Position numbers and translations under genes: made by a program
DNA from: an uncultured Flavobacteriaceae bacterium
GTDB lineage: Bacteria > Bacteroidota > Bacteroidia > Flavobacteriales > Flavobacteriaceae
NCBI GenBank assembly: GCA_947502635.1
Contig: CANNAN010000002.1
Coordinates: 496,001 to 560,000 of the forward strand
DNA: 64,000 bases
Reading direction: 5' to 3'
Shown: piece by piece, positions 1 through 50,599 of the stretch
Layout: each line of letters begins with the position of its first letter
How positions within the stretch are numbered: position 1 is the first letter of the stretch
Notes under the pieces: generated by a model
Databases searched by the model: none
Seen by the model: only the letters and a program-made list of their open reading frames with translations
What the model was told of the DNA's origin: nothing

Positions 1-485
1 CTAACTTGAGTACAGGGTATTTTATTAGAGACTTTGTCAAATAAAATTAAAGGTAAGCTGTTTAATATTTGAAGTACATTTTCTACATTACGTGTCATTT
101 TTGAAAGTGACATTAAAATACCGTCCACACCAAATTGCATCATTGTTTTAAGCATTTCAGTTTGTTTTATTACATCATCATTAGATTCAGAAACAATAAC
201 TCTATAACCTTTTGATGCAGATTCTTCCAGTATCCCTCTAATAATTGTTGTTGTAAAATAATGGGTTATGTTTGGTACAATAACTCCTATGATATTTGTT
301 TTATGTTGTCTAAACCCTTTTGCAAAAAGATTAGGGACATAATTTAATTCCTGAGCTATTTTCTTTACTTTCTTTTTAGTGGTTTCGCTTATGTCTGGAT
401 GATCGTTTAGTGCACGAGAAATTGTTGAAGTTGACAAATCAAGCTTTTTGGCTATTTGTTTTAATGTAGTTAGTTCCTTTTTCAT
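1..485 (-). CDS. LacI-family transcriptional regulator (C-terminus outside window)
   Basis: About 161 N-terminal residues are present. The gene starts at the ATG complementary to 483-485 and runs off the left edge. The first ~55 residues are a LacI-type helix-turn-helix plus hinge (LKQIAKKLDLSTSTISRAL, then KIAQELNYVPN), followed by the start of a periplasmic-binding-protein-like sensor domain (IIGVIVPNITHYFTT, GYRVIVSESND). Family members bind palindromic operators and release them on binding a sugar or related ligand. It is divergent from the TonB receptor gene, and the 127-base space between them holds operator-like repeats. It therefore most likely controls the locus at 613-8206; this is inferred from position. 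Confidence 0.93.
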   Translation of the reverse strand, partial: MKKELTTLKQIAKKLDLSTSTISRALNDHPDISETTKKKVKKIAQELNYVPNLFAKGFRQHKTNIIGVIVPNITHYFTTTIIRGILEESASKGYRVIVSESNDDVIKQTEMLKTMMQFGVDGILMSLSKMTRNVENVLQILNSLPLILFDKVSNKIPCTQV

Positions 486-507
486 TTAATCAGATTTTAA
501 TTTTATT

Positions 508-535
508 GCAAACGTTCCCGCAAACGATTGTGTGC
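508..535. promoter_or_regulatory. Candidate LacI-family operator
   Basis: The 7-mer GCAAACG occurs twice, at 508-514 and 520-526. The second copy begins an imperfect 16-base palindrome (GCAAACGATTGTGTGC, 520-535; 6 of 8 half-site positions match). GCAAACG-type half sites are typical of LacI/PurR-family operators. The site lies between a divergent LacI gene and its presumed target. No protection data exist, so this is a sequence-only call. Confidence 0.45.
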
Positions 536-612
536 AAATATCTTGATTTTTATGATATTATTATGTGTGATTCTTAATTATATTAGCTAAAAACTAACTA
601 ATTCTCAAAAAA

Positions 613-3297
613 ATGAAAAAAATTATTCTTACGTTATTAAGTGTTTTTAGCATTTCTGTGATGTTTTCGCAAACGGAAATATCGGGATCTATTAAAGATA
701 AATCAGGTATGCCTATTACAGGAGCTAATATTCTTATTTTGGGTAGTGCTTCAGGAACGACATCGGATTTTGATGGAAATTTTAGTTTCTCTACGAATGT
801 TTCAGGAGAACATACGATACAAGTATCTTTTGTAGGATATAGTAAAATTGAGCAGCCAATAAATCTTAGTGGAAGTCCAATTGTTTTAAATTTTGTATTA
901 CAAGAAGGAGGTAATGCCTTAGATGAGGTTGTATTAACAGCATCTGCTACTTTTAGATCGCAAAAAGACACACCAATGTCTATTAGTTCACTAAAACAAA
1001 AGACGATAACTAAGTTGTCTGCAAATAGTCAGGCAGATATTATTAGAAGCATCCCAGGTATTACAGCAGAAGGTGGCGGTGGAGAAACAGCTACAAACGT
1101 TTTTGTAAGAGGATTGCCTTCTGGAGGGCAATATGTATTTAACCCTTTACAATATGATGGCATGCCATTAATGAGTACGTTTGGATTGAATTCATCTGCA
1201 CATGATGTCTATGCAAGACCAGATATAGGATTTAAAGGTGTTGAATTCGTGCGTGGTGGTGCAGCTGTGTTATATGGAGCAGGATCGGTTGCAGGTATTA
1301 TTAATTATACGAGTAAAACAGGGGACTCAAATGCAGAAAATATTATTAATGTAGAATGGGCAGATAAAGGCCGTTTGAAAACAGATTTTTATACAGGAGG
1401 AAAACTGGGAGGAGAAGATTCTAATACATATTATGCTTTTACGGGTTTTATTAGAAAAGATGATGGACCAATTGAAACAGGATTGCCTACAAAAGGGGTG
1501 CAATTTAGAGCAAATATTAAAAAGAAATTTGAAAATGGATCTTTTACAGTCCATGGACAGTTTATAAATGATAAAGCACAGTTCTTCTTACCATTACCTT
1601 TAGATGGAGGAAACAGGACTAGATTAGCAGGTAATGATGGAAAAGAAGTATCTCAATTATTATCTGGAGAACTGGCGCATACATCATTTTTAACCCCAGG
1701 TGGCGTTTACGAAAGCCCAATTGAAGACGGTGTGTTTACTCAAGGAGGTTATATAATGGGAGATTTTAATTATAATTTCTCAGATGACTTAAAATTTAAG
1801 TCAAAAGTAAAATATGCAAATTATAAGCACAATTTTGCTTTGTATATTGGAGGCAATGGTGATAACAATAATCCAATAACTTTAAATGAATATGTAAATA
1901 ATGTTGCGCCAGGGAATTTAGGTTTTACTGCTCAATATCAGGGAGGCCCAAGCGGTAGTAGTGTTAATGGTTCAGATTTAGTTCTGGATAATTTACATAT
2001 TGATAGATTAAGACCTATGACAGATTATTCTGGAGAAGCTTCTTTAACAAAAACATTAGAAGTATCTAATGGAACACATAATATTACAGGAGGGGTGTTT
2101 TTAGCACGTACAGAAGCAGAAGATGTAAACTATCAATATCGTGTGTTATCAGAATTTAATAATAATCCACGATTAGTAAATTTAAGTTATGTTGATGCAG
2201 GTGGTAATGATGTTACATTTTCGCAGGGCGGATTATATAACAGAATAGGTATGACATCCAATAAGTTTTTATCTCAAAATAAAACAGCTTTTTATTTAAC
2301 AGATGAGATGGTTTTTGATAAATGGCGTTTTGATATTGGATTTAGAATCGAAAATACCGAAGGAACTTTTAGTAATGGAAGTATTTCTGAACAAACAGTT
2401 TATAATGATGTTTCATTAACTCCAGAATTAGCAAATGTTCGCTTTGCAGATGGTAGTTTTACAAGAGCAAATGTAAGTGCAACAGATTGGGCTTTGTCTT
2501 TAGCTGGTTTGTATAAATTAAACACAGATGTTAATTTATATGCTAATTTCTCAAAAGGTTTCTTCTTTCCTCAAATTAGAGGATTTTCGCCTATCTCAAC
2601 AGGAGTTACTGGAAGTAAATATGACTCAGAACAAATTATTCAATTTGAAGCAGGTGCAAAATTAGGTACAGAAAAACTAAAAGGATCTATAGCAGCATAC
2701 TATGTTGGTTTAAGTGATAGAATAAAAATAGATCAAGGTTTTGTTGGCGGTGCTTTAGTAGATTTAACAAGATCTGAACAAAGTACATCTACAGTAGGAG
2801 CCGAATTAACTTTCGATTGGAGCTTTGCAGAAAACTTTAGTTTAAGAGGAACAGGAACTTATCAAAACCATGAGATTACAAAAAATGTTTCTACAGATTT
2901 AACTAATAATACATCATCAACTACAAATGAAGGTAATGAATTAGCGAGACAACCTAATTTCTTAGGGAGTTTAGGAGCCTATTTTGACAATAGTAAATTT
3001 GATGCCTTATTATCATTTAACCATACAGGTAGCAAGTTTGCTGCAGATAATAATACAGTGGAATTAGATGCCATAACCATTGCGCGTATAGGTGCTGGAT
3101 ATATGTTTAATATAGGTGATAATGATGACAGTAAAGAAACATTACGTTTAGGTTTTTCAGTGTTTAATTTATTTGATGATGATGGAGTTACAGAAGGAGA
3201 TCCAAGAAATGTAAATCAGGCAGGGGCTGCAGAATTTTTCTTTGGAAGACCAATACTACCCAGAAGGTTCTTCTTAACAGCAACATTTAATTTTTAA
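613..3297 (+). CDS. TonB-dependent outer-membrane receptor with carboxypeptidase-like N-terminal domain
   Basis: The protein has 894 residues. A signal peptide (residues 1-20, ending MFSQ) is followed by a carboxypeptidase D regulatory-like Ig fold (ISGSIKDKSGMPITGANI... ending in the TonB-box region near LDEVVLTAS), a plug domain (~115-230, with RSIPGITAEGGG and GVEFVRGGAAVLYGAGSVAG) and a long beta-barrel ending in aromatic F (TATFNF). It should import a ligand across the outer membrane using TonB energy. The plug resembles FecA-like receptors more than SusC, and no SusD gene follows, so the ligand is probably small rather than a glycan chain. It is the first gene of the putative glycosylglycerate locus; a hairpin terminator separates it from the hydrolase gene. 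Confidence 0.93.
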   Translation: MKKIILTLLSVFSISVMFSQTEISGSIKDKSGMPITGANILILGSASGTTSDFDGNFSFSTNVSGEHTIQVSFVGYSKIEQPINLSGSPIVLNFVLQEGGNALDEVVLTASATFRSQKDTPMSISSLKQKTITKLSANSQADIIRSIPGITAEGGGGETATNVFVRGLPSGGQYVFNPLQYDGMPLMSTFGLNSSAHDVYARPDIGFKGVEFVRGGAAVLYGAGSVAGIINYTSKTGDSNAENIINVEWADKGRLKTDFYTGGKLGGEDSNTYYAFTGFIRKDDGPIETGLPTKGVQFRANIKKKFENGSFTVHGQFINDKAQFFLPLPLDGGNRTRLAGNDGKEVSQLLSGELAHTSFLTPGGVYESPIEDGVFTQGGYIMGDFNYNFSDDLKFKSKVKYANYKHNFALYIGGNGDNNNPITLNEYVNNVAPGNLGFTAQYQGGPSGSSVNGSDLVLDNLHIDRLRPMTDYSGEASLTKTLEVSNGTHNITGGVFLARTEAEDVNYQYRVLSEFNNNPRLVNLSYVDAGGNDVTFSQGGLYNRIGMTSNKFLSQNKTAFYLTDEMVFDKWRFDIGFRIENTEGTFSNGSISEQTVYNDVSLTPELANVRFADGSFTRANVSATDWALSLAGLYKLNTDVNLYANFSKGFFFPQIRGFSPISTGVTGSKYDSEQIIQFEAGAKLGTEKLKGSIAAYYVGLSDRIKIDQGFVGGALVDLTRSEQSTSTVGAELTFDWSFAENFSLRGTGTYQNHEITKNVSTDLTNNTSSTTNEGNELARQPNFLGSLGAYFDNSKFDALLSFNHTGSKFAADNNTVELDAITIARIGAGYMFNIGDNDDSKETLRLGFSVFNLFDDDGVTEGDPRNVNQAGAAEFFFGRPILPRRFFLTATFNF

Positions 3298-3319
3298 GTT
3301 TATTTTAAATTGAGTTGAT

Positions 3320-3358
3320 AACTCATCACTTATAGCTAAGTGTAAGTGATGAGTTTTT
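3320..3358 (+). terminator. Intrinsic terminator/attenuator after the TonB receptor gene
   Basis: Two 12-base arms (3321-3332 and 3343-3354) pair perfectly and can extend by one more A-T pair, around a 10-base loop, followed by a T run. It sits between the receptor and the co-oriented hydrolase gene, so it may make the receptor transcript more abundant than the rest. Confidence 0.8.
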
Positions 3359-3377
3359 ATATGAATAAAAAGTTGTT

Positions 3378-4682
3378 ATGAGAGATTTACAAAAGAAGGC
3401 TATCGAGGTACTTAATAAGAATTGGAAAGAAGGTTTTAGTATACCGTGTGCTAATTTATATCCATTTCAGTGGTTTTGGGATTCTGGCTTTATAGCTATC
3501 GGTTTTGCACATTTTGATATGGCAAAAGCAGAACAGGAAATAACTACCTTATTAGATACGCAGTGGGAAAACGGATTTATGCCTCATATCGTTTTTCATA
3601 CAGAAAGTGATTCTTACTTTCCTGGGGCAGATTTTCACTGTTCAGATTTACATTCAGAATCTTCAAAAAAATACAAGTCAACAGGTATGACACAGCCACC
3701 AGTAACAGGTTTTGTCTTGCAAGAGTTATATAGGATTAGTGATAATAAGGCTGAAACATTAAAATTTATTGAAACAGTTATTGATAAAGTATATCACAAT
3801 CACATGTATTTCTATAAAAATAGAGATCCGAAAAATGAAGGTTTAGTATACATTTATCATAATTGGGAATCGGGAACCGATAATTCACCAATTTGGGATG
3901 ATATATGGGAAACCATGGATCCTCCCGAATATACTTTTGAGCGTAGAGATACAACACATGTAGATGCCTCCGAAAGACCATCAAAAAGAGAATATGATCA
4001 TTATTTATACATAATAGATATAGCGAAAGAACATCATTATAGTGATGAAAAAATAGCTGAACTCTCACCTTTTTTAGTGCAAGACCCGTTGTTTAATGCC
4101 ATGCTTATCAAGTCTAATCAAAGTTTAATTAACTTGTACAAGCTAATAGGGAGCAGTAAAGAAAAAGTGAATCAGCTTGAAATGTGGCAGGAAAAAAGTA
4201 TTAAATCTTTTAACCATAAATTATTTGATGAAGAAATAGGCGCCTATATTCATTACGACTTAAGAAATGAAAGACCATTAAGATATCTTTCATCATCGTC
4301 TTTTTCACCAATATTTGCTAATATTCCAAGCAAGGAAAGAGCTGCGGCAATGATTCAAGTCATGATGGAGACATTTGGAAATGAGGATCAATATTTATGT
4401 GCCTCATTCGATCCAACAAGCGAACGATTTAATCCAAAAAAATATTGGAGAGGGCCAGTTTGGGTAAATCTTAACTGGATCCTTTATAATGGATTAAAAC
4501 AATATGGAATGGATGACATTGCAGAGCGTGTAAAACAAGACACTATTGCCATTGTAGAAAACAATGGCTTCTATGAATATTTTGATTCAAGAAAAGAAAT
4601 GCATGAAAACAATAATGCAGGCTATGGTGGTAATGATTTTTCTTGGAGTGCAGCTTTATTAATAGATTTATTAAATGACTAG
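3378..4682 (+). CDS. MGH1-like glycoside hydrolase (GH63), probable mannosylglycerate/glucosylglycerate hydrolase
   Basis: A 434-residue protein without a signal peptide, so cytoplasmic. It is an (alpha/alpha)6-barrel type GH63 protein of the size of bacterial mannosylglycerate and glucosylglycerate hydrolases. Visible signatures are QWFWDSGFIAIG near the N-terminus, the motif ESGTDNSPIWDD containing D168 (the general-acid Asp position in this family), KYWRGPVWVNLNW, and an acidic C-terminal segment (E400-E410) followed by GGNDFSWSAALLIDLL, where the family general base lies. Family enzymes split alpha-glycosyl-glycerate to hexose plus glycerate. The glycerate kinase gene three ORFs downstream supports that substrate strongly. 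Other GH63 substrates cannot be excluded from sequence alone. Confidence 0.82.
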   Translation: MRDLQKKAIEVLNKNWKEGFSIPCANLYPFQWFWDSGFIAIGFAHFDMAKAEQEITTLLDTQWENGFMPHIVFHTESDSYFPGADFHCSDLHSESSKKYKSTGMTQPPVTGFVLQELYRISDNKAETLKFIETVIDKVYHNHMYFYKNRDPKNEGLVYIYHNWESGTDNSPIWDDIWETMDPPEYTFERRDTTHVDASERPSKREYDHYLYIIDIAKEHHYSDEKIAELSPFLVQDPLFNAMLIKSNQSLINLYKLIGSSKEKVNQLEMWQEKSIKSFNHKLFDEEIGAYIHYDLRNERPLRYLSSSSFSPIFANIPSKERAAAMIQVMMETFGNEDQYLCASFDPTSERFNPKKYWRGPVWVNLNWILYNGLKQYGMDDIAERVKQDTIAIVENNGFYEYFDSRKEMHENNNAGYGGNDFSWSAALLIDLLND

Positions 4683-4788
4683 TTTTTTCTCTTTTCAAAG
4701 AGAGGATTGCTTTGATTTTATAAGAAATCAGGAGGGTTATATTTAAAACTTACAAAACTTTGTAGAGCAGTAAAAATGATCTAAGTAA

Positions 4789-4796
4789 TAAATTTG
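4789..4796 (+). promoter_or_regulatory. -7-like box (TAnnTTTG) before GNAT gene
   Basis: TAAATTTG matches the Bacteroidota sigma -7 consensus and ends only 7 bases before the ATG at 4804. If used, the mRNA would be nearly leaderless. No convincing -33 element at the usual spacing. Confidence 0.35.
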
Positions 4797-4803
4797 GAAA
4801 TGT

Positions 4804-5406
4804 ATGTTAGATTTCGATTATTCAAAAGCGTATATTATAGAGGATGATCGGGTTAAACTAAGTCCTTTAAAAATGGAGCATGTTGAAAGTTTACTTGATA
4901 TATCAAACGAATCAAATCTATGGACATTCTTTCTTGAAAAAGGAAACGGAGTTAAAAATTTAACGAATTATATCCAATCCACTATTAATAACCGAAAACA
5001 AAAAAAGGAATACCCGTTTGTTGTTTTCGATAAAACAAAAAATGAGCTTGTAGGAACAACAAGGTTTTACGATTATATAACAGACTTAAAATCAATAAAA
5101 TTAGGGCATACTTGGATTGGGGAAAAATTTAGAGGCACAGGCTTAAATAAGCATTGCAAATATTTATTGTTTCAATTCGCATTTGAAAAATTAGAAGTAG
5201 AACGCATAGGTTTCGGTGCTCATATAGAAAATAAAACAAGTATTGCAGCCATGAAAAGTATAGGCTGTAAAGAAGAAGGCATATTACGAAATTTTATTCC
5301 ATCACTGGATGGGAAAGGAAGAGCCGATATCATTTTATTAAGTATTTTAAAAAATGAATGGTTTGATAAAGTAAAAACAGAATTAAAAAATAAACTAAAC
5401 ACCTAA
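4804..5406 (+). CDS. GNAT-family N-acetyltransferase (RimL-like)
   Basis: The 200-residue protein has the RimJ/RimL-type GNAT fold. It opens with LDFDYSKAYIIEDDRVKLSPL, has a beta4/acetyl-CoA-binding stretch around LGHTWIGEKFRGTGLNKHCK, and the late motif ENKTSIAAMKSIGCKEEGILRN. Such enzymes acetylate N-termini or small amines with acetyl-CoA; the substrate here is unknown. It lies between the hydrolase and the symporter in the same orientation, 10 bases before the symporter start, so it is probably transcribed with the catabolic genes. No role in glycosylglycerate breakdown is obvious. Confidence 0.85.
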   Translation: MLDFDYSKAYIIEDDRVKLSPLKMEHVESLLDISNESNLWTFFLEKGNGVKNLTNYIQSTINNRKQKKEYPFVVFDKTKNELVGTTRFYDYITDLKSIKLGHTWIGEKFRGTGLNKHCKYLLFQFAFEKLEVERIGFGAHIENKTSIAAMKSIGCKEEGILRNFIPSLDGKGRADIILLSILKNEWFDKVKTELKNKLNT

Positions 5407-5416
5407 ACTTAAAATC

Positions 5417-7063
5417 ATGAATTGGCTAGACTATAGTATTGTCATATTTTATATTATATTTTTCCTAGGAATGGGGTTCTTTTTTAAGGATAACAAAGAC
5501 TCTAAAGATTATTTTTTAGGAGGAAAAAGCATGGGGTGGTTCCCTTTAAGTCTCTCAACCATGGCTACTCAGCTGTCTGCCATAAGTTTTATATCCGCTC
5601 CTGCCTTTGTAGGTCTTAAACTAGGAGGCGGTATGAAATGGTTAACCTTCGAGTTTGCCGTTCCATTGGCTATGATTTTTATAATGGTTGTTATTATTCC
5701 ACCTCTATTCCGATCTGGAGTAGTAAGTATATATGAGTTCGTAGAGAAGCGTTTTAGCCCATCAACCAGATTAGTATTAAGTGTGGTTTTTCAAATTAGT
5801 CGTGCCTTGGCAACTGGAGTCATGGTATATACAATTGCTATTATTTTACAAGCCGTTTTAGATATAGATTTTGGCTACACCATTTTAATTATAAGTATAA
5901 TAACCATTGTGTACTCATGGCAAGGTGGTATGAAAGCTGTTGTCTGGGGAGACGCCATACAAATGATCATACTTTTTGCAGGACTTCTTATTTGTCTTTA
6001 TTTTGGATGGACTCTTTTGCAAGACCATGGTGGTTTATCCCAAGGGTTTAATCCAGAAAGGTTAAAGGTAATTGACTTTAATTTAGGTATTGGAGAAGGT
6101 AACGAATATGGTGTTTTACCAATGATACTAGGAGGTTTCTTTTTATATGCGTCTTATTATGGATGCGATCAAACACAAGCACAACGGCTATTATCCGCTA
6201 AAAGCGAAAAAACCATTCGTCAACTTCTATTAGCAAATGGGCTTTTGCGTTTTCCTGTCGTTTTAATTTATTGTGCTATGGGGCTTGTTATTGGTGGATT
6301 AGTAACGTTAGCACCAGATTTTCTTCAAGAGATTACAGATACCTCTCAAAAATATTTTCCAGAGGAATTTGCAAAAAATGGTATAAAACCAGATTTAATG
6401 CTTCCTGTTTTTATCATGAAATACTTGCCACATGGGCTTATTGGGATTTTAATGGTAGGAATATTGTCTGCGGCGATGTCTTCTTTAAGTTCAACGGTGA
6501 ACTCGCTTTCAGCAGTAACAGTAGAAGATTTTTTTAACCGCGGCAGAGTAAAACTAACAAACAAAAAATACATGCTTATTTCAAAAGGGTCTGTGGTCTT
6601 TTGGGGAGTCGTCTGTATAGCAAGTGCCTTTCTTTTTGGAGGAAGTAAAAGTGCTGTTATAGAAATTATTAATGCTATTGGCTCTGTGTTTTATGGCCCT
6701 GTACTAGTTACTTTTATTTTAGCATTCTTTTCTAAAAAAGTAAATCATATAGGAATGAATGCTGGAATTATTATAGCCGTACTTATTAATCTTACTTTTT
6801 CTAAAACGATACAGGAGTTATTTCATGTAGATTTAGGAATTCATATTTTTTGGATATGGCTTAATTTTACAGGGGTTATAATTTCTTTAGTGGTGGCTTA
6901 TATTGTTAGTGCATTTACCAAACATGTAAAAGTTAAAAGTATTTCAAATTTCAATGTAACCATTAAGAAAGAAGATTTTATGATAAAAGAGGTTTACATT
7001 TTAGTAGCTTTCTTTATAATTATTTTAGTGTTTAGTTATTTTGTGCCTGTTATTTTTGGATAA
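5417..7063 (+). CDS. Sodium:solute symporter (SSS family)
   Basis: A 548-residue inner-membrane protein with about 13 hydrophobic segments. It has the SSS hallmarks: an N-terminal DYFLGGKSMGWFPL segment, AISFISAPAFVG, the GGMKAVVWGDAIQM motif and MVGILSAAMSSLSSTVNSLS. It resembles the sodium/sugar (SglT-like) branch and would bring a sugar or glycoside into the cytoplasm with Na+. Placed between the hydrolase/GNAT genes and glycerate kinase, it is the likely inner-membrane importer of the locus. The substrate is inferred from neighbours only. Confidence 0.92.
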   Translation: MNWLDYSIVIFYIIFFLGMGFFFKDNKDSKDYFLGGKSMGWFPLSLSTMATQLSAISFISAPAFVGLKLGGGMKWLTFEFAVPLAMIFIMVVIIPPLFRSGVVSIYEFVEKRFSPSTRLVLSVVFQISRALATGVMVYTIAIILQAVLDIDFGYTILIISIITIVYSWQGGMKAVVWGDAIQMIILFAGLLICLYFGWTLLQDHGGLSQGFNPERLKVIDFNLGIGEGNEYGVLPMILGGFFLYASYYGCDQTQAQRLLSAKSEKTIRQLLLANGLLRFPVVLIYCAMGLVIGGLVTLAPDFLQEITDTSQKYFPEEFAKNGIKPDLMLPVFIMKYLPHGLIGILMVGILSAAMSSLSSTVNSLSAVTVEDFFNRGRVKLTNKKYMLISKGSVVFWGVVCIASAFLFGGSKSAVIEIINAIGSVFYGPVLVTFILAFFSKKVNHIGMNAGIIIAVLINLTFSKTIQELFHVDLGIHIFWIWLNFTGVIISLVVAYIVSAFTKHVKVKSISNFNVTIKKEDFMIKEVYILVAFFIIILVFSYFVPVIFG

Positions 7064-7081
7064 AATTTTAAGTTTCATATT

Positions 7082-8206
7082 ATGAAAATTGTTCTAGCAC
7101 CAGACAAATTTAAAGGCTCTTTAACAGGGACTCAATTTTGTAATGCTGTTGAAGAAGGAATTAAGCAGGTATTACCTGATACGGAAATCGTTAAGTTGCC
7201 ACTTGCAGATGGCGGCGATGGCACGATAGAAATATTAGAATATCATTTACAGGGCAAACGTGTAAAAGTAACTGTAAACGATCCTTTGTTTAGACCTGTT
7301 GAGGCATCTTATTTATATATGGATGCTATTGAAACAGCGTTTATTGAAATGGCAGAAGCTTCGGGAGTGGCACTCTTAAAACCTGAAGATAGAAACTGTT
7401 TTTATACAACATCGCTTGGCACAGGCGATATTATTCTAGATGCCATAAACAAAGGAGCAAAAACAATTGTTTTAGGTATTGGTGGCAGTGCTACTAACGA
7501 CTGTGGGATAGGAATGGCAACAGCCTTAGGTTATAAGTTTGAAGATGAAAATGGGATTGAATTAAGCCCGATTGGAAAAAATTTATCACAAATTAAAAGT
7601 ATAAATACAACACGTGTCATTTCCAATTTAAAATCCGTGACTTTTAAAGTCGCCTGCGATGTTACAAATCCGTTATTTGGAGAAAACGGAGCCGCCTATA
7701 TTTATGGACCACAAAAAGGCGCTTCAAAAAAAGAAATTGCTTTTTTAGATAAAGGGTTACAGCATATTTCAAGATTAATTTTAGAAGTTTTTAGTTTAGA
7801 TGTTCAAAATATAAAAGGAGCAGGTGCAGCTGGAGGTATGGGTGCAGGAACAAAGGCCTTTTTAAACGCCGAATTACAATCGGGTATTGATTTAGTTAAA
7901 GATTTGATTGGTTTTGATGAGAAAATTAAGGATGCCGACTGGATTATAACAGGTGAAGGCAAATTAGATGCTCAAACCCTTTCTGGGAAAACGATTCAAG
8001 GCGTTATTGCTTCGGCTAAAAAAGAAGATACGCATGTAGCAGCATTTTGTGGAAGCATAGCACTTTCAAAAGAAACAGCCGAAAAATTTGGAATTTCTTA
8101 TATGGATGCTGTGATAAATAGATCTAAAAATCTTCAAGATGCCATGCAGAATTCCTATAAATACCTAACAGATATTTCGACGATATTCGCAAAAAAACGG
8201 ACTTAG
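7082..8206 (+). CDS. Glycerate kinase (GarK/GlxK family)
   Basis: 374 residues, the normal length for the GarK/GlxK family. Signatures include MKIVLAPDKFKGSLTG at the N-terminus, LADGGDGTIEIL, VLGIGGSATNDCGIGM and ITGEGKLDAQTLSGKT. The enzyme phosphorylates D-glycerate with ATP, giving 2-phosphoglycerate (GarK type), which enters lower glycolysis. It begins 18 bases after the symporter and completes a route import, hydrolysis, phosphorylation of the aglycone. It ends 4 bases before the convergent DUF3098 gene, with no room for a separate terminator. Confidence 0.95.
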   Translation: MKIVLAPDKFKGSLTGTQFCNAVEEGIKQVLPDTEIVKLPLADGGDGTIEILEYHLQGKRVKVTVNDPLFRPVEASYLYMDAIETAFIEMAEASGVALLKPEDRNCFYTTSLGTGDIILDAINKGAKTIVLGIGGSATNDCGIGMATALGYKFEDENGIELSPIGKNLSQIKSINTTRVISNLKSVTFKVACDVTNPLFGENGAAYIYGPQKGASKKEIAFLDKGLQHISRLILEVFSLDVQNIKGAGAAGGMGAGTKAFLNAELQSGIDLVKDLIGFDEKIKDADWIITGEGKLDAQTLSGKTIQGVIASAKKEDTHVAAFCGSIALSKETAEKFGISYMDAVINRSKNLQDAMQNSYKYLTDISTIFAKKRT

Positions 8207-8209
8207 ATT

Positions 8210-8464
8210 TTACTGCTTTTCAGGATTTAATAAAATAGCATAAATTTCAATACCGAATCCAATTAAAATAATAGCAGGAGCAAGTCTTATACGTCTCCAG
8301 TGAAAGATTTCAGGGTTAAAAACATTAGGGTCGTCACTACCACCGCCAGACATTAAAATAAAACCTAAAGCGATACAAGCTAAACCAATAAACATAAACT
8401 TGTAGTTTTTCTTTCCAAAAACAAATATACTTTTAGCGTCTTCTTTTCGTTTTTTTTCTCCCAT
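8210..8464 (-). CDS. DUF3098 membrane protein
   Basis: This 84-residue protein has two hydrophobic helices (~25-40 and ~61-78) separated by a short loop containing SGGGSDDPNVFNPEIFHWRRI, the typical DUF3098 pattern. The family is restricted to Bacteroidota and is usually found directly downstream of ftsX. Function is unknown; inner-membrane location is inferred from the helices. Start two bases after the stop of the upstream gene indicates an operon with ftsX. Confidence 0.85.
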   Translation of the reverse strand: MGEKKRKEDAKSIFVFGKKNYKFMFIGLACIALGFILMSGGGSDDPNVFNPEIFHWRRIRLAPAIILIGFGIEIYAILLNPEKQ

Positions 8465-8873: not shown

Positions 8874-9752
8874 TTAGTAGTAAAGTTGATCTGTTTTCAA
8901 ATTTAAAAAACGTTGTGTAGCAAAGTGTGTGCTAATCCAAGTGATGATTATGCCCAAAGCAAATACAAATACAAATAATAGCGTTACTAAAATAGGGTTG
9001 CTAAGTAATTCCAACTCCACAAATGTTTTATTTAAATAGTATAAAACAATGGCCATGCCTATTAATGCAATAGCAGCACCTATAACACCAAGTTTTACAC
9101 TTTTCCATACAAAAGGACGTCTAATAAATTGTTTTGTGGCACCAACCATTTGCATGGTTTTAATAGTAAAACGTTTAGAATAAACAGCTAATCTTATAGA
9201 ACTATTAATAAGTAAAACGGCAATTAAAGTAAAAATGCCACTTATAATAAGTACCCAAAAACTAATCTTTTTTACATTATCATTCATCAAATTAACCAAA
9301 TCATTGTCATAGCTAACTTCGTCAACAAAATTTTTGTTTTGTGCTTCTGTAGAAATTTTCTCTAAATGTTCAGAAGTTACAAAATCAGCCTTCAAATGCA
9401 CATCGATTGAATTTTGTAATGGATTATAACCCACAAAATCCATAAAATCTTCACCATTTTCAGCTTTCATAAACTCGGCAGCCTGATCTTTAGAGACATA
9501 TTCAGTAGATTTTACATAATCTGCCATCGCTAAGCTTTTTTCAAGCTGTTTTGTTTCTACCTCTTTAGCAGAATCTTTAAGATAGATAGTTACAACCACC
9601 TGTTCTTTAAAATGATCAGATACCTTTTTAGCATTTAGAATAAGCATGCCCAATAAACCCAATAAAAACAATACTAAAGCAATACTTAATACCACTGAAA
9701 AGTAAGATGAGATAAGTTTGCGTTTTTGATGTTTTTCAAATGATGAACTCAT
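8874..9752 (-). CDS. ftsX: Cell-division permease-like protein FtsX
   Basis: This 292-residue membrane protein has one N-terminal transmembrane helix (~16-38), a periplasmic domain (~45-155, containing KDSAKEVETKQLEKSL and ADYVKSTEYVSKDQAA) and three C-terminal helices (~165-185, 225-243, 258-280). This is the topology of FtsX. FtsX works with the ATPase FtsE to activate peptidoglycan hydrolases at the division site; ftsE is not next to it here, as is common in Bacteroidota. First gene of a three-gene operon, divergent from leuS. Confidence 0.93.
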   Translation of the reverse strand: MSSSFEKHQKRKLISSYFSVVLSIALVLFLLGLLGMLILNAKKVSDHFKEQVVVTIYLKDSAKEVETKQLEKSLAMADYVKSTEYVSKDQAAEFMKAENGEDFMDFVGYNPLQNSIDVHLKADFVTSEHLEKISTEAQNKNFVDEVSYDNDLVNLMNDNVKKISFWVLIISGIFTLIAVLLINSSIRLAVYSKRFTIKTMQMVGATKQFIRRPFVWKSVKLGVIGAAIALIGMAIVLYYLNKTFVELELLSNPILVTLLFVFVFALGIIITWISTHFATQRFLNLKTDQLYY

Positions 9753-9843
9753 AAAATAATGGATTGATAGTGTAAAAATAATAAAGTATTCTCTTTCCCT
9801 GAGGATTACAACGCTTAAACTTTCAACATTGTCATAATAAGTT

Positions 9844-9851
9844 TAAATTTG
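9844..9851 (+). promoter_or_regulatory. Candidate leuS promoter (-7 box)
   Basis: TAAATTTG matches TAnnTTTG, with a TTTC at 9821-9824 at 19-base spacing as a degenerate -33. It lies 64 bases before the leuS ATG. Confidence 0.45.
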
Positions 9852-9914
9852 CGCCTTAATTGAAGAGGCTGTAAGTGGTCTTCAGTTGGCAGTAATACGA
9901 AAATAAAAATTAGC

Positions 9915-12900
9915 ATGAAATACAATTTCAACGAGATAGAAGCGAAATGGCAAAAGTATTGGGCAGAGAACCAAACATTTAAAGCTGTTAATAATAGTGA
10001 GAAACCAAAATATTATGTTTTGGATATGTTTCCTTACCCAAGTGGAGCTGGTTTACACGTTGGACACCCATTGGGGTATATCGCTTCAGATATTTATGCA
10101 CGTTACAAACGCCATCAAGGTTTTAATGTATTGCATCCACAAGGTTACGATAGTTTTGGTTTGCCAGCAGAGCAATACGCCATTCAAACAGGGCAGCATC
10201 CAGCAATAACCACTGCTGAAAATATAAAAACATACCGTAGACAGTTAGACCAGATAGGTTTTTCTTTCGACTGGTCTCGTGAGGTTAGAACGTCTGATCC
10301 AAGTTATTATAAATGGACCCAATGGATTTTTATTCAATTGTTCAATTCCTGGTATAATAATGATTCTGATAAAGCTGAAGATATTTCAGAATTAGAAAAA
10401 TTGTTTGCTTCAGGAGGAAATGCAAATGTGAATGCCGTTTGTGATGATAATGTCGAAACGTTTTCTGCCGATGAATGGAATGGATTTTCATCTGAAAAAC
10501 AACAAAAAATATTATTACAGTATCGATTAACATATTTGGCCGAAACAGAAGTGAATTGGTGTCCTGCATTAGGAACTGTTTTAGCAAATGATGAAATCGT
10601 TAATGGTGTTTCAGAACGTGGCGGGCATCCTGTAATTCGTAAAAAAATGACCCAGTGGAGTATGCGTATTTCTGCCTATGCAGAACGTTTACTTCAAGGA
10701 TTAGATAAAATTGATTGGACAGACTCACTAAAGGAAAGTCAACGTAATTGGATAGGAAAATCTGTTGGGGCGTCTGTTTCTTTCAAGATTATTGCCGAAG
10801 GCAATAATCTTGAAAGAAACATTGAAGTGTTTACAACAAGACCTGATACCATTTTCGGAGTTTCATTCATGACCCTAGCACCAGAACATGAATTGGTATC
10901 GCAAATAACAACTCCAGAACAAAAGGAAGCCGTTGATGCTTATATTGTTGCGACTGCAAAGCGTAGCGAACGCGATAGAATGGCGGATGTAAAAACTATT
11001 TCGGGCGTATTTACTGGGGCTTATGCAGAACACCCTTTTACAAAAGAACCTATTCCAGTTTGGATTGGCGACTACGTATTAGCAGGTTATGGTACGGGAG
11101 CCGTGATGTCGGTACCTTGTGGGGATCAACGTGATTACGATTTTGCAAAACATTATAATATTCCAATTCCTAATATTTTTGAAGGGGTCGATATTTCTGA
11201 AGAAGCATTTTCAGATAAAGATAAAACGGTTATTGGAAATAGTGATTTCCTTAACGGCATGAACTATAAAAAAGCGACTAAACGTGCTATTTACGAATTA
11301 GAACAAATAGGACTAGGTGAAGGTAAAACCAATTATAGATTGCGTGATGCTGTATTTAGCAGACAGCGTTATTGGGGAGAGCCATTCCCTGTGTATTATG
11401 TGAATGGTATGCCGCAAATGATTGCCAAAGAACATTTACCAATTAAATTACCAGAAGTTGAAAAGTATTTACCAACCGAAACTGGCGAACCACCACTAGG
11501 AAATGCCACTGTTTGGGCTTGGGATACAAATACAAATAAAGTGGTGAGCAACGACCTTGTCACTCAGAGCGCAGTTGAAGGGGGTCAAGATAATGGTATC
11601 TATCCACTCGAATTAAACACTATGCCTGGCTGGGCAGGAAGCTCCTTTTATTTTAACAGATACATGGATCCTACGAATGATGATGAAATGGCCTCTAAAG
11701 AAGCTTTAGATTATTGGCAAGACGTCGATTTATATATTGGTGGTAGCGAGCATGCTACTGGGCATTTGTTATATTCACGTTTTTGGCAAAAATTCTTATT
11801 TGATAAAGGCGTTGTACCTGTTGATGAGTATGCTAAAAAGTTGATTAATCAAGGGATGATTTTGGGCACTAGTGCTTTTACATATGAACTTATGCCTGCT
11901 TTTGATTTTGATTCAAAATATGATTATAATAAAATTTTTGTTTCGAATAAAATATTTATAACCTACCAGAAGGAAATAGTTTTAGACGACAAGTTTTTCG
12001 ATGAAATATTTGATAAAATGTTCTCGATGTATTCAAATTCTGAAAAATTAAAGATTAAAGACTTGGTAGATAAGGAAAAGATCAGTTTTGGTTTTATGGA
12101 TAGGCATGTAGATGTGACTTTAATAAATTCTTCAGACGAACTAAATGTTAATGACTTCAGAAAATGGCGCCCAGAATTTGAGGATGCTATTTTTATTGGT
12201 GAAAATGGAGAGATAATTAATGGAAATAATGATACTTATAAAGTGGGTAGAGATGTCGAAAAAATGTCCAAGTCAAAATACAACGTAGTCAATCCAGACA
12301 ATATCGTTGCAGATTATGGCGCAGACAGTTTAAGACTTTACGAAATGTTTCTTGGTCCTTTAGAGCAATACAAGCCATGGAATACCGCAGGTATCACAGG
12401 CGTATACAACTTTCTTAAAAAACTATGGAAACTATACCACCAAGGAGAAAACGGAGCTTTTAACGTAACAAGTTCCCCTCCTTCGGAGGGGTTAGGGGAG
12501 GCTTTAAAAACTCTTCATAAAACCATTAAAAAGGTACAAGAAGATATAGAAAATTTCTCTTTTAATACGTCTGTGTCCACATTTATGATCGCTGTTAACG
12601 AGTTAACGGCCCAAAAATGTACAAGCAAAGATATCTTGGAGCCACTATTGATTTTAATGTCACCGTACGCGCCACACATTGCTGAGGAGTTATGGAGTCA
12701 ATTAGGGCATAATGAATCTATTTCAACAGTCGACTTTCCGAAATTTGACGGTAGTCACTTAGTAGAAAGCAGTAAAAACTATCCAATTTCATTTAATGGG
12801 AAAATGCGTTTTACGTTAGAATTACCATTAGATATGAGTAAAGACGATATTGAAAAAACGGTTTTAGAGCACGAAAAGACGAAAGAACAATTACAAGGGC

Positions 12901-26967: not shown

Positions 26968-29900
26968 ATGAAACACATTATTGAAAAAATGATTAAAAAA
27001 CTATTACTATTATTTGTATTTCTCCTACTTACAGTAGAATTATCTTACGCTCAGAATATTAAAGTTGATGTAAATTTAAACATCAAACATTCTGTTGAAG
27101 GTGTCTCTGATTTTGGAAGAGACAGGCATATGACGGTACACGCAACACCTACGGAGACTGATTGGGTAGGTGACGAAGACAAATTAGATTATCTAATTAA
27201 TGATCTAGATGTTTATTTTGGTAGAGATAATGGATCTGCAACCTGGAAATTCAGAGATACACCCGAAGACCCAAATAGGGCAGCAAAACCAGATATTAGT
27301 GGGATGCAAGAAAGGGCCGATTATCTCAAAAATATTTATGACGGTGAGGTTTTGGCGCATCAATATGAAAACAAAGGTGCTATGATAATGGGAACCAATC
27401 CATTACCAACCTATCCTACTTTGAACTGGTTTGATGCTGGTAGTACATGGCATGGATGGCAACCTCAAACGGTAGAGACTTCTGCAGAATGGGTGACAGA
27501 ATATTTAGATCGTTATTTCAAAAAAAATAATGGAGAATCTGGAGAACCTTTACCAGCATATTGGGAAGTTATTAACGAACCTGATATGTTAATGATGACT
27601 GGACAAATGATGTGTACTAGCCAAGAAAAAATATGGGAGTACCACAATTTAGTAGCTGCTAGCGTAAAACAACGTATGGGAGCAAAAGCCCCGAAAATTG
27701 GCGGCATGACTTGGGGGCTTCATGATTTGTACTTACCAGATGGTCTAAGTAGGTTCGCTGAAAACCATTATGACCAATGGTTAACCGCAGAATCCTTTCC
27801 TATATATCACGCCATGATTGATTCTGATGTAAACACTTCTAGAGCACAAAATTGGTACCAATGGGATGTTATGTGGCAAGGGTTTATTGATAACTGTGGA
27901 GTAAACATGGACTTTTATGGAGTTCATATATACGATTGGCCAGATATTGCAGGCAAAAACAATGGTGTTTTGCGTACAGGAGGTCAAGTTGAAGCGACTC
28001 TCGATATGCTAGAATGGTATGATAACTTTAAATTTTCGGCAAAAAAGGATATTGTGATTTCTGAATTTGGAGCAGTTTCATCAGCTTTAGACAATATAAG
28101 TTACGAGCGTAGGGCTTGGGAAAATTTACGTCCGTTTAACGCTATGTTTATGCAGTTTTTAGAAAGACCTTCTCATATCGTTCTTTCCATGCCTTTCTGC
28201 CCAATAAAAGCAGAATGGGGTGATATTAGGGATGCTAACGGTAACTTGATAAAAAGATATCAAGCGACTCTAATGGATAAAGATACCAATGGAGATTGGC
28301 AATGGAACGATTTTATCTTATTCTATGAATTATGGAAAGATGTTGATGGTACTCGTATTGATACAAAGTCGAACAATTTAGATATTATGGTTGATGCCTA
28401 TACTAAAGACAATCATGTTTATTTAATACTTAACAATCTGAAGTTTGATGAACAAACCTTGGACTTAACTTTATTTGATGATTATACAAACGCCATCACT
28501 AGCGTAAAAATGAACCATCTATTTTTAGATATTTCTAAAGGAATACAGGGAGAAGCCGTTATGGATGAACGGACATTTAATACAGCACCTGGTTCTATTA
28601 AAATTGCTGGAGAAGGCACTATAATTTTAGATTATACATTTGAAAATCCAGTGACGATAGACCAAACTAGTGATGAGAAAAAATTTATGGGAGACAGACT
28701 GGGAGTAGGTTCTACAGCCATAGGAGGAGACAAATTTCGAAAGACGGTTGCAGGGCGTACACCCTTAAACGCAATGGTAAACAACGTTGTTGTTCCAGCA
28801 AAAGGAGAAGCTGTATTGCGTATTGGAGCCAGATGTTGGGAAAGTGCGTATCAACCATCAAGTATAACTATTAACGGAAACGCTTTAACCCTTCCTGCTA
28901 AAGAAGATTGGAGAGGGGAAGTTCAGGATTCTAGAAACGTTGTATTCCATGTGTTTGAAGTGGATGTTCCTTTAAGTTTTCTGCAACAAAACAATACTAT
29001 AACTTGCCAGGTCGATGGAAATAGTGTTGAGTACACAACAGTAATGCTTCAAGTATTCGATTTTAGTAAAACACCAAAACGTTCTGAGGAGATCGCTCCA
29101 ATTTCAGTTGCAGCATTATCAATTGACGAATCTACATTAGGTATTATGGTTGGAAATTCAAAAGCATTAACTGCAACGATTGCTCCAGAAGATGCAAGTA
29201 ATAAAAGCATCACTTGGTCATCTGCAGATGAAGCTATTGCAACTGTGGATGAATTTGGTATAGTAACGGGGGTGTCTATTGGATCTACAACCATAACTGC
29301 AACATCTGTTGATGGAAGTTTTACAGATAACACTACAACTAATGTCGCTGCCTTTTCTGCTACCTCTGTCACAGGTATTTCAATTGATGAAGGTAATAAT
29401 ACCAATGTCACATATTATATCACCACACCACTTCACGCCAATATTCTTCCAATAGATGCTACTGAACAAAATGTTGTTTGGTCATCATCAAACCCAGACA
29501 ATGTCGAGGTTGACCCAAATACAGGAAAAGTAGTTGGGAAAATAATTAATAGTTCTGCAACCATTACAGCGACACTAACAGACCCTAATAATGGTAATTC
29601 GATACATACAACAAGCATCCTGGTAACTGTAGATGCACCAGCTAATTTTATAGCTGCAAGCGGTATTGAAGTTTCTCCAGTGAATCGTACACTAACAGCA
29701 GCAGGTGAAGAATTTCAAGTCAGTGCAAATGTTTTACCGTCTAATGCTACCGTTAAAACATACACATGGTCATCTAACGACACTAATGTAGCAACGGTTA
29801 GTGAATCTGGACTTGTTACAGCGATAGCAAACGGAAATGCACAGATAATAGCGACATCTACAGAAGGTGGTTATACTTCTATCTGTAATTTAACTGTAGC

Positions 29901-30618
29901 TATTAATAATGGTGGTGGGAATACCTTAATCATTGAAGCTGAAACTTTCGATAGAACAGAAGGCACATATGTAGATGGTCATGTTCCTAGCCCTTATGGA
30001 GTAAATAGAGAAACTATGAGTATTAATTGGGTTAACTCAGGTGATTGGGCAGAGTATGATATTAATGTACTAGCTGCAGGGAATTATAATATTGTATATT
30101 TTATCTCTACCCCATCAGACAATGCTCAAATACAAATCTATGTTGATAATATTCTTATTTCAACAGATAATGTTTCTAATAATGGAGCTTGGGATACTTA
30201 TGGTCCGTTAACAGCATTAAATCCTGTAACCTTAACAGCTGGAGCACACACTATAAGAATAGTGGCTTCTGGTAGTAATGCATGGCAATGGAATTTAGAT
30301 CGTATTGAATTACAAGAAAACTCTTTGACTTTGAGGACTTCGAAGGTTTTGAATGTAAATGAACCTGATATAAGCATTTCCAGTGCGTATATTTACCCCA
30401 ACCCTGTTGAAAATGTATTAACCATTAATGGAGAAAACTTAAACGGATCTTACGATATGAAAATTTTCAACCTAAATGGAGGCATTGTAAAGAAATCAAA
30501 AATTAATGGTTTCCCTAGCACCATTGATATTGACAATCTGCAAGATGGATTCTATTTGTTAAGTATTAGTAACTCTAATACTAAAAGAATCTTCAAAGTA
30601 GTTAAAATGACTAAATAA
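26968..30618 (+). CDS. Secreted GH86-type beta-agarase/porphyranase with Ig-like domains, CBM6 and T9SS tail
   Basis: 1216 residues. Signal peptide 1-28 (SYAQ). Catalytic region ~30-560 has the GH86 opening (VNLNIKHSVEGVSDFGRDR, then MTVHATPTETDW), YWEVINEPD with probable acid/base E204, DFYGVHIYDWPDI, and ISEFGAV with probable nucleophile E366. A beta-sandwich follows to ~700, then three Big_2-like Ig domains (~705-985, each with a TWSS-type or VWSS core), a CBM6 (~990-1125: LIIEAETFD, NWVNSGDWAEYDINV, AWQWNLDRIEL) and a T9SS type A sorting domain (~1140-1216: YIYPNPVENVLTI). Such enzymes cut agarose or porphyran from red algae. It is exported by T9SS and probably surface attached. No SusC/D or other agarolytic genes adjoin it. 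Confidence 0.85.
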   Translation: MKHIIEKMIKKLLLLFVFLLLTVELSYAQNIKVDVNLNIKHSVEGVSDFGRDRHMTVHATPTETDWVGDEDKLDYLINDLDVYFGRDNGSATWKFRDTPEDPNRAAKPDISGMQERADYLKNIYDGEVLAHQYENKGAMIMGTNPLPTYPTLNWFDAGSTWHGWQPQTVETSAEWVTEYLDRYFKKNNGESGEPLPAYWEVINEPDMLMMTGQMMCTSQEKIWEYHNLVAASVKQRMGAKAPKIGGMTWGLHDLYLPDGLSRFAENHYDQWLTAESFPIYHAMIDSDVNTSRAQNWYQWDVMWQGFIDNCGVNMDFYGVHIYDWPDIAGKNNGVLRTGGQVEATLDMLEWYDNFKFSAKKDIVISEFGAVSSALDNISYERRAWENLRPFNAMFMQFLERPSHIVLSMPFCPIKAEWGDIRDANGNLIKRYQATLMDKDTNGDWQWNDFILFYELWKDVDGTRIDTKSNNLDIMVDAYTKDNHVYLILNNLKFDEQTLDLTLFDDYTNAITSVKMNHLFLDISKGIQGEAVMDERTFNTAPGSIKIAGEGTIILDYTFENPVTIDQTSDEKKFMGDRLGVGSTAIGGDKFRKTVAGRTPLNAMVNNVVVPAKGEAVLRIGARCWESAYQPSSITINGNALTLPAKEDWRGEVQDSRNVVFHVFEVDVPLSFLQQNNTITCQVDGNSVEYTTVMLQVFDFSKTPKRSEEIAPISVAALSIDESTLGIMVGNSKALTATIAPEDASNKSITWSSADEAIATVDEFGIVTGVSIGSTTITATSVDGSFTDNTTTNVAAFSATSVTGISIDEGNNTNVTYYITTPLHANILPIDATEQNVVWSSSNPDNVEVDPNTGKVVGKIINSSATITATLTDPNNGNSIHTTSILVTVDAPANFIAASGIEVSPVNRTLTAAGEEFQVSANVLPSNATVKTYTWSSNDTNVATVSESGLVTAIANGNAQIIATSTEGGYTSICNLTVAINNGGGNTLIIEAETFDRTEGTYVDGHVPSPYGVNRETMSINWVNSGDWAEYDINVLAAGNYNIVYFISTPSDNAQIQIYVDNILISTDNVSNNGAWDTYGPLTALNPVTLTAGAHTIRIVASGSNAWQWNLDRIELQENSLTLRTSKVLNVNEPDISISSAYIYPNPVENVLTINGENLNGSYDMKIFNLNGGIVKKSKINGFPSTIDIDNLQDGFYLLSISNSNTKRIFKVVKMTK

Positions 30619-50574: not shown

Positions 50575-50599
50575 GGTTATTTTTTAATAACCTTATTTG
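50568..50599. terminator. Shared terminator overlapping both convergent stop codons
   Basis: Perfect 14-base arms (50568-50581 with 50586-50599) with a TTTT loop. The stop of the Atl gene (50572-50574) and the last codons of the LRR gene (VIKK) are inside the stem. Confidence 0.85.

Follow-up and report, generated by a model that had tools for sequence, protein, structure and literature searches.

A predicted LacI-controlled operon for mannosylglycerate use in marine Flavobacteriaceae

What might a flavobacterium be taking up when it carries a glycoside hydrolase of family 63 (GH63), a TonB-dependent receptor and a glycerate kinase in one run of genes, divergent from a LacI-family regulator? 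The question is raised by the start of a 64,000-nt stretch of DNA from an uncultured Flavobacteriaceae bacterium (assembly GCA_947502635.1, contig CANNAN010000002.1, positions 496,001 to 560,000), referred to below as the window; the genome (G000) has 5.44 Mb in 81 contigs and is 99.98% complete. Digeneaside, or 2-O-alpha-mannosylglycerate, is a red-algal osmolyte, and the sequence evidence suggests, with a probability of about 0.7, that these genes form a LacI-controlled operon for using it from outside the cell. The genes and the predicted operator are, in window coordinates:

3–485, minus strand: LacI-family regulator (PF00356), N-terminal 161 of 340 aa, the rest lying beyond the window edge
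506–530, plus strand: predicted double LacI-type operator TTGCAAACGTTCCCGCAAACGATTG, from conservation in LacI–receptor gaps
613–3297, plus strand: TonB-dependent receptor (PF00593, PF07715, PF13715)
3378–4682, plus strand: GH63 mannosyl/glucosylglycerate hydrolase, MGH1-like (PF22422, E=6e-89, profile positions 1–356 of 356)
4804–5406, plus strand: GNAT acetyltransferase (PF13302), between hydrolase and symporter
5417–7063, plus strand: sodium:solute symporter (SSS), proposed inner-membrane importer (PF00474; TIGR00813 above cut-off)
7082–8206, plus strand: glycerate kinase (PF02595, E=7e-137; TIGR00045 above cut-off)

Genes of the locus and the active site of the hydrolase

A preliminary description of this DNA had listed the regulator, the divergent receptor, the hydrolase, the symporter and the kinase; all are present in that order and confirmed by their domains, and the acetyltransferase gene, which it omitted, must be added. 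The complete regulator gene (L114, 9463–10485) encodes 340 aa. The gaps from receptor through hydrolase, acetyltransferase and symporter to kinase are 80, 121, 10 and 18 bp, consistent with a single operon. Downstream of the kinase, a sigma-70 scan was at chance level (three sites found, against a mean of 3.9 in shuffled sequences), and the sole terminator-like site is on the minus strand. The kinase scores 456.8 for PF02595 (cut-off 23.3) and 437.3 for TIGR00045 (cut-off 168.45), has 3cwc and 1to6 as solved relatives, and is below cut-off for both position-specific kinase equivalogs, NF007668 and NF007401. The closest solved relatives of the symporter by sequence are NIS, SMCT1 and SMVT. There is no sign of a SusC/SusD pair: the receptor scores 90.1 for TIGR04056 against a cut-off of 368.25, and no SusD family is among the domain matches of the operon genes.

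The best solved relative of the hydrolase is the Thermus mannosylglycerate hydrolase Tt8MgH (2z07/4wva; phmmer E=6e-94), and the second is the mycobacterial glucosylglycerate hydrolase MhGgH (E=4e-61), with 165 of 412 (40%) and 126 of 403 (31%) aligned residues identical, respectively. D168, in the motif ESGTDNSP, had been singled out earlier, and it aligns with the MhGgH catalytic acid. Together with E400 it makes up the catalytic pair (MhGgH D182, E419), which is kept in all 78 flavobacterial rows of a MAFFT alignment (the window plus L005–L081; unnamed and named rows may share species). The same is true of the direct glycerate contacts Y28, W32, Y80, R200 and Y356 (MhGgH Y36, W40, Y88, R216 and Y375) and, more generally, of every one of the 17 residues checked, outside loop E, from the catalytic and substrate sites of MhGgH; loop E itself and some tunnel residues differ from Tt8MgH or MhGgH. 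In a contrast set of 32 homologues (L082–L113, mainly Chloroflexota and Actinobacteria, 25–30% identity) the catalytic pair is also kept, while Y80 and F81 fall in gaps in all 32, R200 is kept in six and Y356 in none, though at this level of identity columns with many gaps may be misaligned. According to the available part of its description, MhGgH hydrolyses glucosylglycerate and mannosylglycerate, not glucosylglycerol or glucosylglycolate (PMC6608630), so the acid part of the substrate matters.

By simple hydropathy the N-terminus of the hydrolase is not hydrophobic: the highest mean over 12 residues within its first 35 is 0.75, compared with 2.4 for the receptor. The glycoside should therefore be taken into the cell uncut. 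In the pathway proposed here, the receptor would pass the heteroside across the outer membrane and the symporter would carry it, intact, across the inner one. The hydrolase, if it works as MhGgH does, would split mannosylglycerate with inversion into mannose and D-glycerate, D168 acting as acid and E400 as base. The kinase, as its family suggests, would convert glycerate to phosphoglycerate, which would enter glycolysis. Mannose would be phosphorylated by an unassigned kinase and then isomerised by ManA; the gene for that enzyme lies outside the operon in this genome, and several relatives have it at the operon end. The regulator would repress at the double operator until released by the substrate or a product.

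Conservation, predicted operator and choice of sugar

The main comparison set consists of 48 named loci (L034–L081) with hydrolases 65–83% identical to that of the window, a sample of near relatives, all of them Flavobacteriaceae. A divergent LacI gene is present in 46 of 46 loci with enough upstream sequence and the receptor in 45 of these, the exception being a Dokdonia locus (L065); of the 44 loci that extend far enough downstream, every one has both symporter and kinase. The five genes occur together in 42 of the 43 loci testable on both sides. Among 397 genomes of the family, the hydrolase is found in 56 and the kinase in 179, and the kinase accompanies the hydrolase in 55 of those 56 and is present in 124 of the 341 genomes that lack the hydrolase (Fisher p ~1.6e-20, uncorrected for relatedness). 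Among 395 genomes drawn from the phylum, 19 have the hydrolase, seven of them the window genome or members of its family.

The acetyltransferase lies between hydrolase and symporter in 18 of the 44 loci with enough downstream sequence. Two Allomuricauda loci have a second GNAT gene downstream of the kinase, and the locus of genome G636, from a different bacterial family and one of the distant ones described below, also has a GNAT gene (L172, 8379, minus strand).

The gap between regulator and receptor holds a double site, GCAAACGTT-NN-CGCAAACGTTTGC, with two LacI-type centres 12 bp apart. It scores at least 19 of 22 positions in all 46 LacI–receptor gaps (the window genome plus 45 of the 48 loci; L059, L064 and L065 are without one of the genes), against at most 14 in 920 shuffled gaps and at most 16 in 893 random segments, but these 46 gaps are also the source of the consensus, which leaves only L065, L190 and L181 as independent tests. 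Those three score 22, 22 and 21, the site in L065 and L190 lying between LacI and the hydrolase with no receptor. Two loci with no LacI alongside, L184 and L185, reach only 12 and 14, and ten kinase-only loci and two genus-mates considered below score 17 at best. A pattern made from the window copy has a single match in the genome at up to three mismatches, at 506–530 (reversed control, none), and no further regulon member was found by this double-site search. A regulon search with a 16-bp single palindrome was set aside as uninformative, giving 11 forward-strand places at up to three mismatches against 33 for the reversed control.

A dedicated TonB receptor and operator suggest an external substrate, and this bears on whether the cell might instead be turning over a glycosylglycerate solute of its own making, with the transporters serving for recapture. 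There is a mycobacterial precedent, since MhGgH has been tied to recovery from nitrogen starvation, the solute having accumulated in the cell (PMC6608630, in the part available). In the window genome, however, the mannosyl-phosphoglycerate synthase family PF09488 has no match (the same search was positive in only one of 14 control genomes), and NF010496 has none above cut-off. The latter says little, as NF010496 matches all 14 controls, 13 of them likewise below cut-off and one above. Self-made solute is considered a very improbable source.

The sugar is suggested by what follows the kinase. In 10 of the 45 loci with the kinase in view, a class I mannose-6-phosphate isomerase gene (ManA) follows it directly on the same strand, within 30 bp by open reading frame (ORF) calls. 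This linkage is read as pointing to mannose, favouring mannosylglycerate over glucosylglycerate. Four of the 10 were scanned with TIGR00218, all scoring above cut-off; the other six are the query itself and five at about 64–72% identity to it. A further locus, L038, has only a broken piece of ManA. On the hydrolase tree the ManA label changes at least eight times, five of the changes being forced by well supported branches, and its clustering does not exceed that of shuffled labels (as few changes in 75 of 500 shuffles), which suggests that ManA has often been gained or lost. The window genome has a ManA-type gene elsewhere, matching the catalytic-domain family PF20511; a search of the genome with PF01238 as the isomerase marker gave no match. 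Within the active site, the position of MhGgH Gln434, a sugar contact (PMC6608630, available part), is F421 in the window hydrolase and is also F in Tt8MgH and in 78 of 78 rows, and E199 is likewise as in Tt8MgH.

Several observations weigh against this reading. ManA is linked in just the 10 loci out of 45, and genome G017, which has no hydrolase, carries kinase and isomerase together at the same site, perhaps as a remnant. The window genome has no ROK-family kinase by a PF00480 search that was positive in 12 of 14 control genomes, which leaves the kinase for mannose, and likewise that for glucose, unassigned. The tunnel residues D196 and S198 match MhGgH (D212, S214) and not Tt8MgH, so that the active-site clues to the identity of the sugar are mixed; N419 and D420 are as in neither enzyme. 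The best NCBIfam match is to NF047898, glucosylglycerate hydrolase, at 314.7, below its cut-off of 550. Finally, the gene set thins out with distance. In eight loci at 54–68% hydrolase identity (L181–L186, L190 and L191, with L182 and L183 cut by contig ends), the symporter is found in eight (broken into pieces in L191), the kinase in six, LacI in two and an in-operon receptor in one; receptor matches of 29–30% further off in three were not counted. Nine distant Bacteroidota loci (L172–L180, 34–42% identity) have no window-like kinase nearby, an adjacent receptor in two and a symporter in three. G636 has receptor, hydrolase, GNAT and symporter in order, G466 receptor, hydrolase and symporter, and G515 hydrolase and symporter; the other six have none adjacent, one having a 25% receptor match about 5 kb away. 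The preliminary description had named relatives lacking the pairing as evidence that would count against it: close relatives keep the gene set (the 42 of 43), and distant ones do so only in part. With receptor and regulator this sparse further out, those two genes mark one flavobacterial group and not the pathway as such.

Glucosylglycerate is a solute of marine picocyanobacteria, and the natural substrate of the same pathway could be this compound, or the two could be used alike. The NF047898 match, even below cut-off, and the MhGgH-like D196 and S198 lean that way, as does the activity of MhGgH on both substrates (PMC6608630, available part). The ManA linkage, the Tt8MgH-like F421 and E199, and the closer overall likeness of the hydrolase to a mannosylglycerate hydrolase lean the other way, and a glucosylglycerate substrate is judged unlikely, if well short of far-fetched.

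The kinase site and the apparent exchange of transporters

The operon may sit at a site with a longer history. The names truB, uppP, ftsX and leuS for genes in the flanks were assigned by eye from sequence, without a family search, and are to be taken as presumed. Genus-mate G248 lacks everything from LacI through kinase between uppP and ftsX: its match to the window genome breaks off 563 bases ahead of the window and picks up again at position 8217, and G248 has 27 bases in between. Genus-mate G019 retains just the kinase at the site (7,606 bp against 124 bp). The comparison took in ten more kinase-only genomes, G017 chosen for its isomerase and the others as the highest-ranking kinase matches without a hydrolase. 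In all ten, truB and ftsX flank the kinase, an arrangement also seen in the window genome; uppP matches at 80% or more in eight and at just 32–34% in two. The kinase may therefore predate the rest of the operon, as a gene of long standing at whose front the mannosylglycerate module has come and gone.

A GntP permease (PF02447) lies beside the kinase in four of these ten loci (L203, at 7102–8436; L204, at 9693–11033; L207; L210) and nearby in a further kinase-only locus, L187. Another is found next to symporter and hydrolase in L186 (5396–6724). Such pairings are perhaps direct acid-uptake modules.

A kinase that stands at the truB–ftsX site without the hydrolase, whether alone, with a GntP permease or with ManA, together with distant hydrolases that have no kinase nearby, could mean that the hydrolase acts on some other glycoside and that the kinase is only a bystander, left over from an earlier site of glycerate use. 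Against this, every glycerate contact checked is kept in 78 of 78 rows, several being lost in the 32 distant homologues by the same alignment, and every one of the 44 loci with enough sequence has the kinase, just 17 of 48 showing an ftsX-like neighbour (recognised by eye). A bystander kinase is accordingly given very little credence, and a joint role in mannosylglycerate use is preferred.

The two transporters show a different pattern from the other genes. By identity, receptors form three clusters (32, 12 and 2) and symporters two (24 and 23); at 62%, hydrolase and LacI form one cluster each, and the kinases are spread over 10, the largest of 34. Identity matrices correlate at 0.67–0.75 among LacI, hydrolase and kinase, and at 0.18–0.35 for pairs that include receptor or symporter. 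Receptor type and symporter type each change at least nine times on the hydrolase tree, a quick tree with 16 of 46 forks drawn open and one locus (L052) typed by hand. When the two types are combined, they nevertheless cluster on the tree more than shuffled labels do (17 changes, where shuffled sets average 27.0 and none of 200 is as low), indicating that exchange has been recurrent and not rampant. Two well supported sister pairs differ in a single transporter: the Maribacter loci L078 and L079 in symporter only, and a Lutibacter/Flavobacterium pair (L063/L068) in receptor only. Receptor and symporter genes thus seem to have been replaced separately, each without the other, while the core of the operon has been more stable.

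Taken together, the glycerate-salvage site by uppP could be a dock for interchangeable upstream modules; we offer this tentatively, thinking it slightly more apt to be wrong than right. The modules would be the kinase alone, a GntP permease with the kinase, or the full mannosylglycerate module. Outer- and inner-membrane transporters would swap independently, with regulator, double operator, hydrolase and kinase staying together and coevolving.

The Flavivirga rizhaonensis locus L040 has its downstream flank in common with the window. Compared with window 3378–8166, its DNA is 87% identical from about the GNAT/symporter border onward (97% for the symporter protein) and 81% over hydrolase and GNAT, and its receptor is of another type; there is perhaps a recombination boundary within the operon near that border. 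L040 also has an extra Antibiotic_NAT-family gene (PF02522, 10056–10805) between GNAT and symporter.

A GH86 gene had earlier been mentioned in connection with the locus. The window does contain a GH86-type gene at 26968–30618, with porphyranase sandwich domains, Big_2 repeats, a CBM6 and a tail for the type IX secretion system (T9SS), by its domains an enzyme for red-algal polysaccharide. It lies about 19 kb from the operon, with leuS, a MutS-domain gene and others intervening, and because of this distance and the unrelated genes between it was rejected as part of the locus. A leucine-rich-repeat protein with a T9SS tail is encoded at 50577–53147.

Relation to known systems

Import and use of a glycosylglycerate, with mannosylglycerate as a candidate, as first proposed for these genes, is supported by the residues, synteny, operator and neighbours described above, as far as sequence can indicate. 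The idea is not a new one. In the parts of the two papers available, Maribacter homologues of Zobellia digeneaside-degradation genes are reported, so that such genes had already been named in marine Flavobacteriaceae (PMC8072126), and digeneaside appears among the substrates that North Sea Flavobacteriia might use (PMC6298971). The preliminary description knew of no described TonB-linked locus of this kind; beyond these two papers the titles and opening lines of abstracts, mostly from open-access literature, suggest no described TonB-linked glycosylglycerate locus. The sequence comparisons give good support for the locus as a further member of a kind already predicted, and they add new detail about the sugar, the operator and a modular history. 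Should the assignment hold, it would supply marker genes, an operator of diagnostic value and a receptor open to testing with which to follow mannosylglycerate uptake in marine bacteria. The apparent exchange of two transporters, each independently of the other, around a single enzyme core would then also be a clear example of operons evolving by modules.

The nearest counterparts are the digeneaside genes of Zobellia galactanivorans and Maribacter dokdonensis 62-1, likewise from marine Flavobacteriaceae and with the same predicted substrate, a comparison made by their partly available descriptions only. The window hydrolase resembles Tt8MgH and MhGgH over most of its length, with catalytic residues and glycerate contacts kept; unlike them, it is part of a TonB/LacI operon. 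In E. coli, mngR-mngA-mngB is a 2-O-alpha-mannosylglycerate system with import by a phosphotransferase system (PTS) and a GH38 enzyme. It too devotes a regulator, an importer and a hydrolase to this one molecule; the window locus has TonB and SSS transporters and a GH63 enzyme in place of PTS and GH38. SuxA of Xanthomonas belongs to a SusD-less TonB locus for sucrose, and loci of that type similarly combine a small-sugar TonB receptor with its own regulator and an inner-membrane carrier, for another substrate and with other enzymes.

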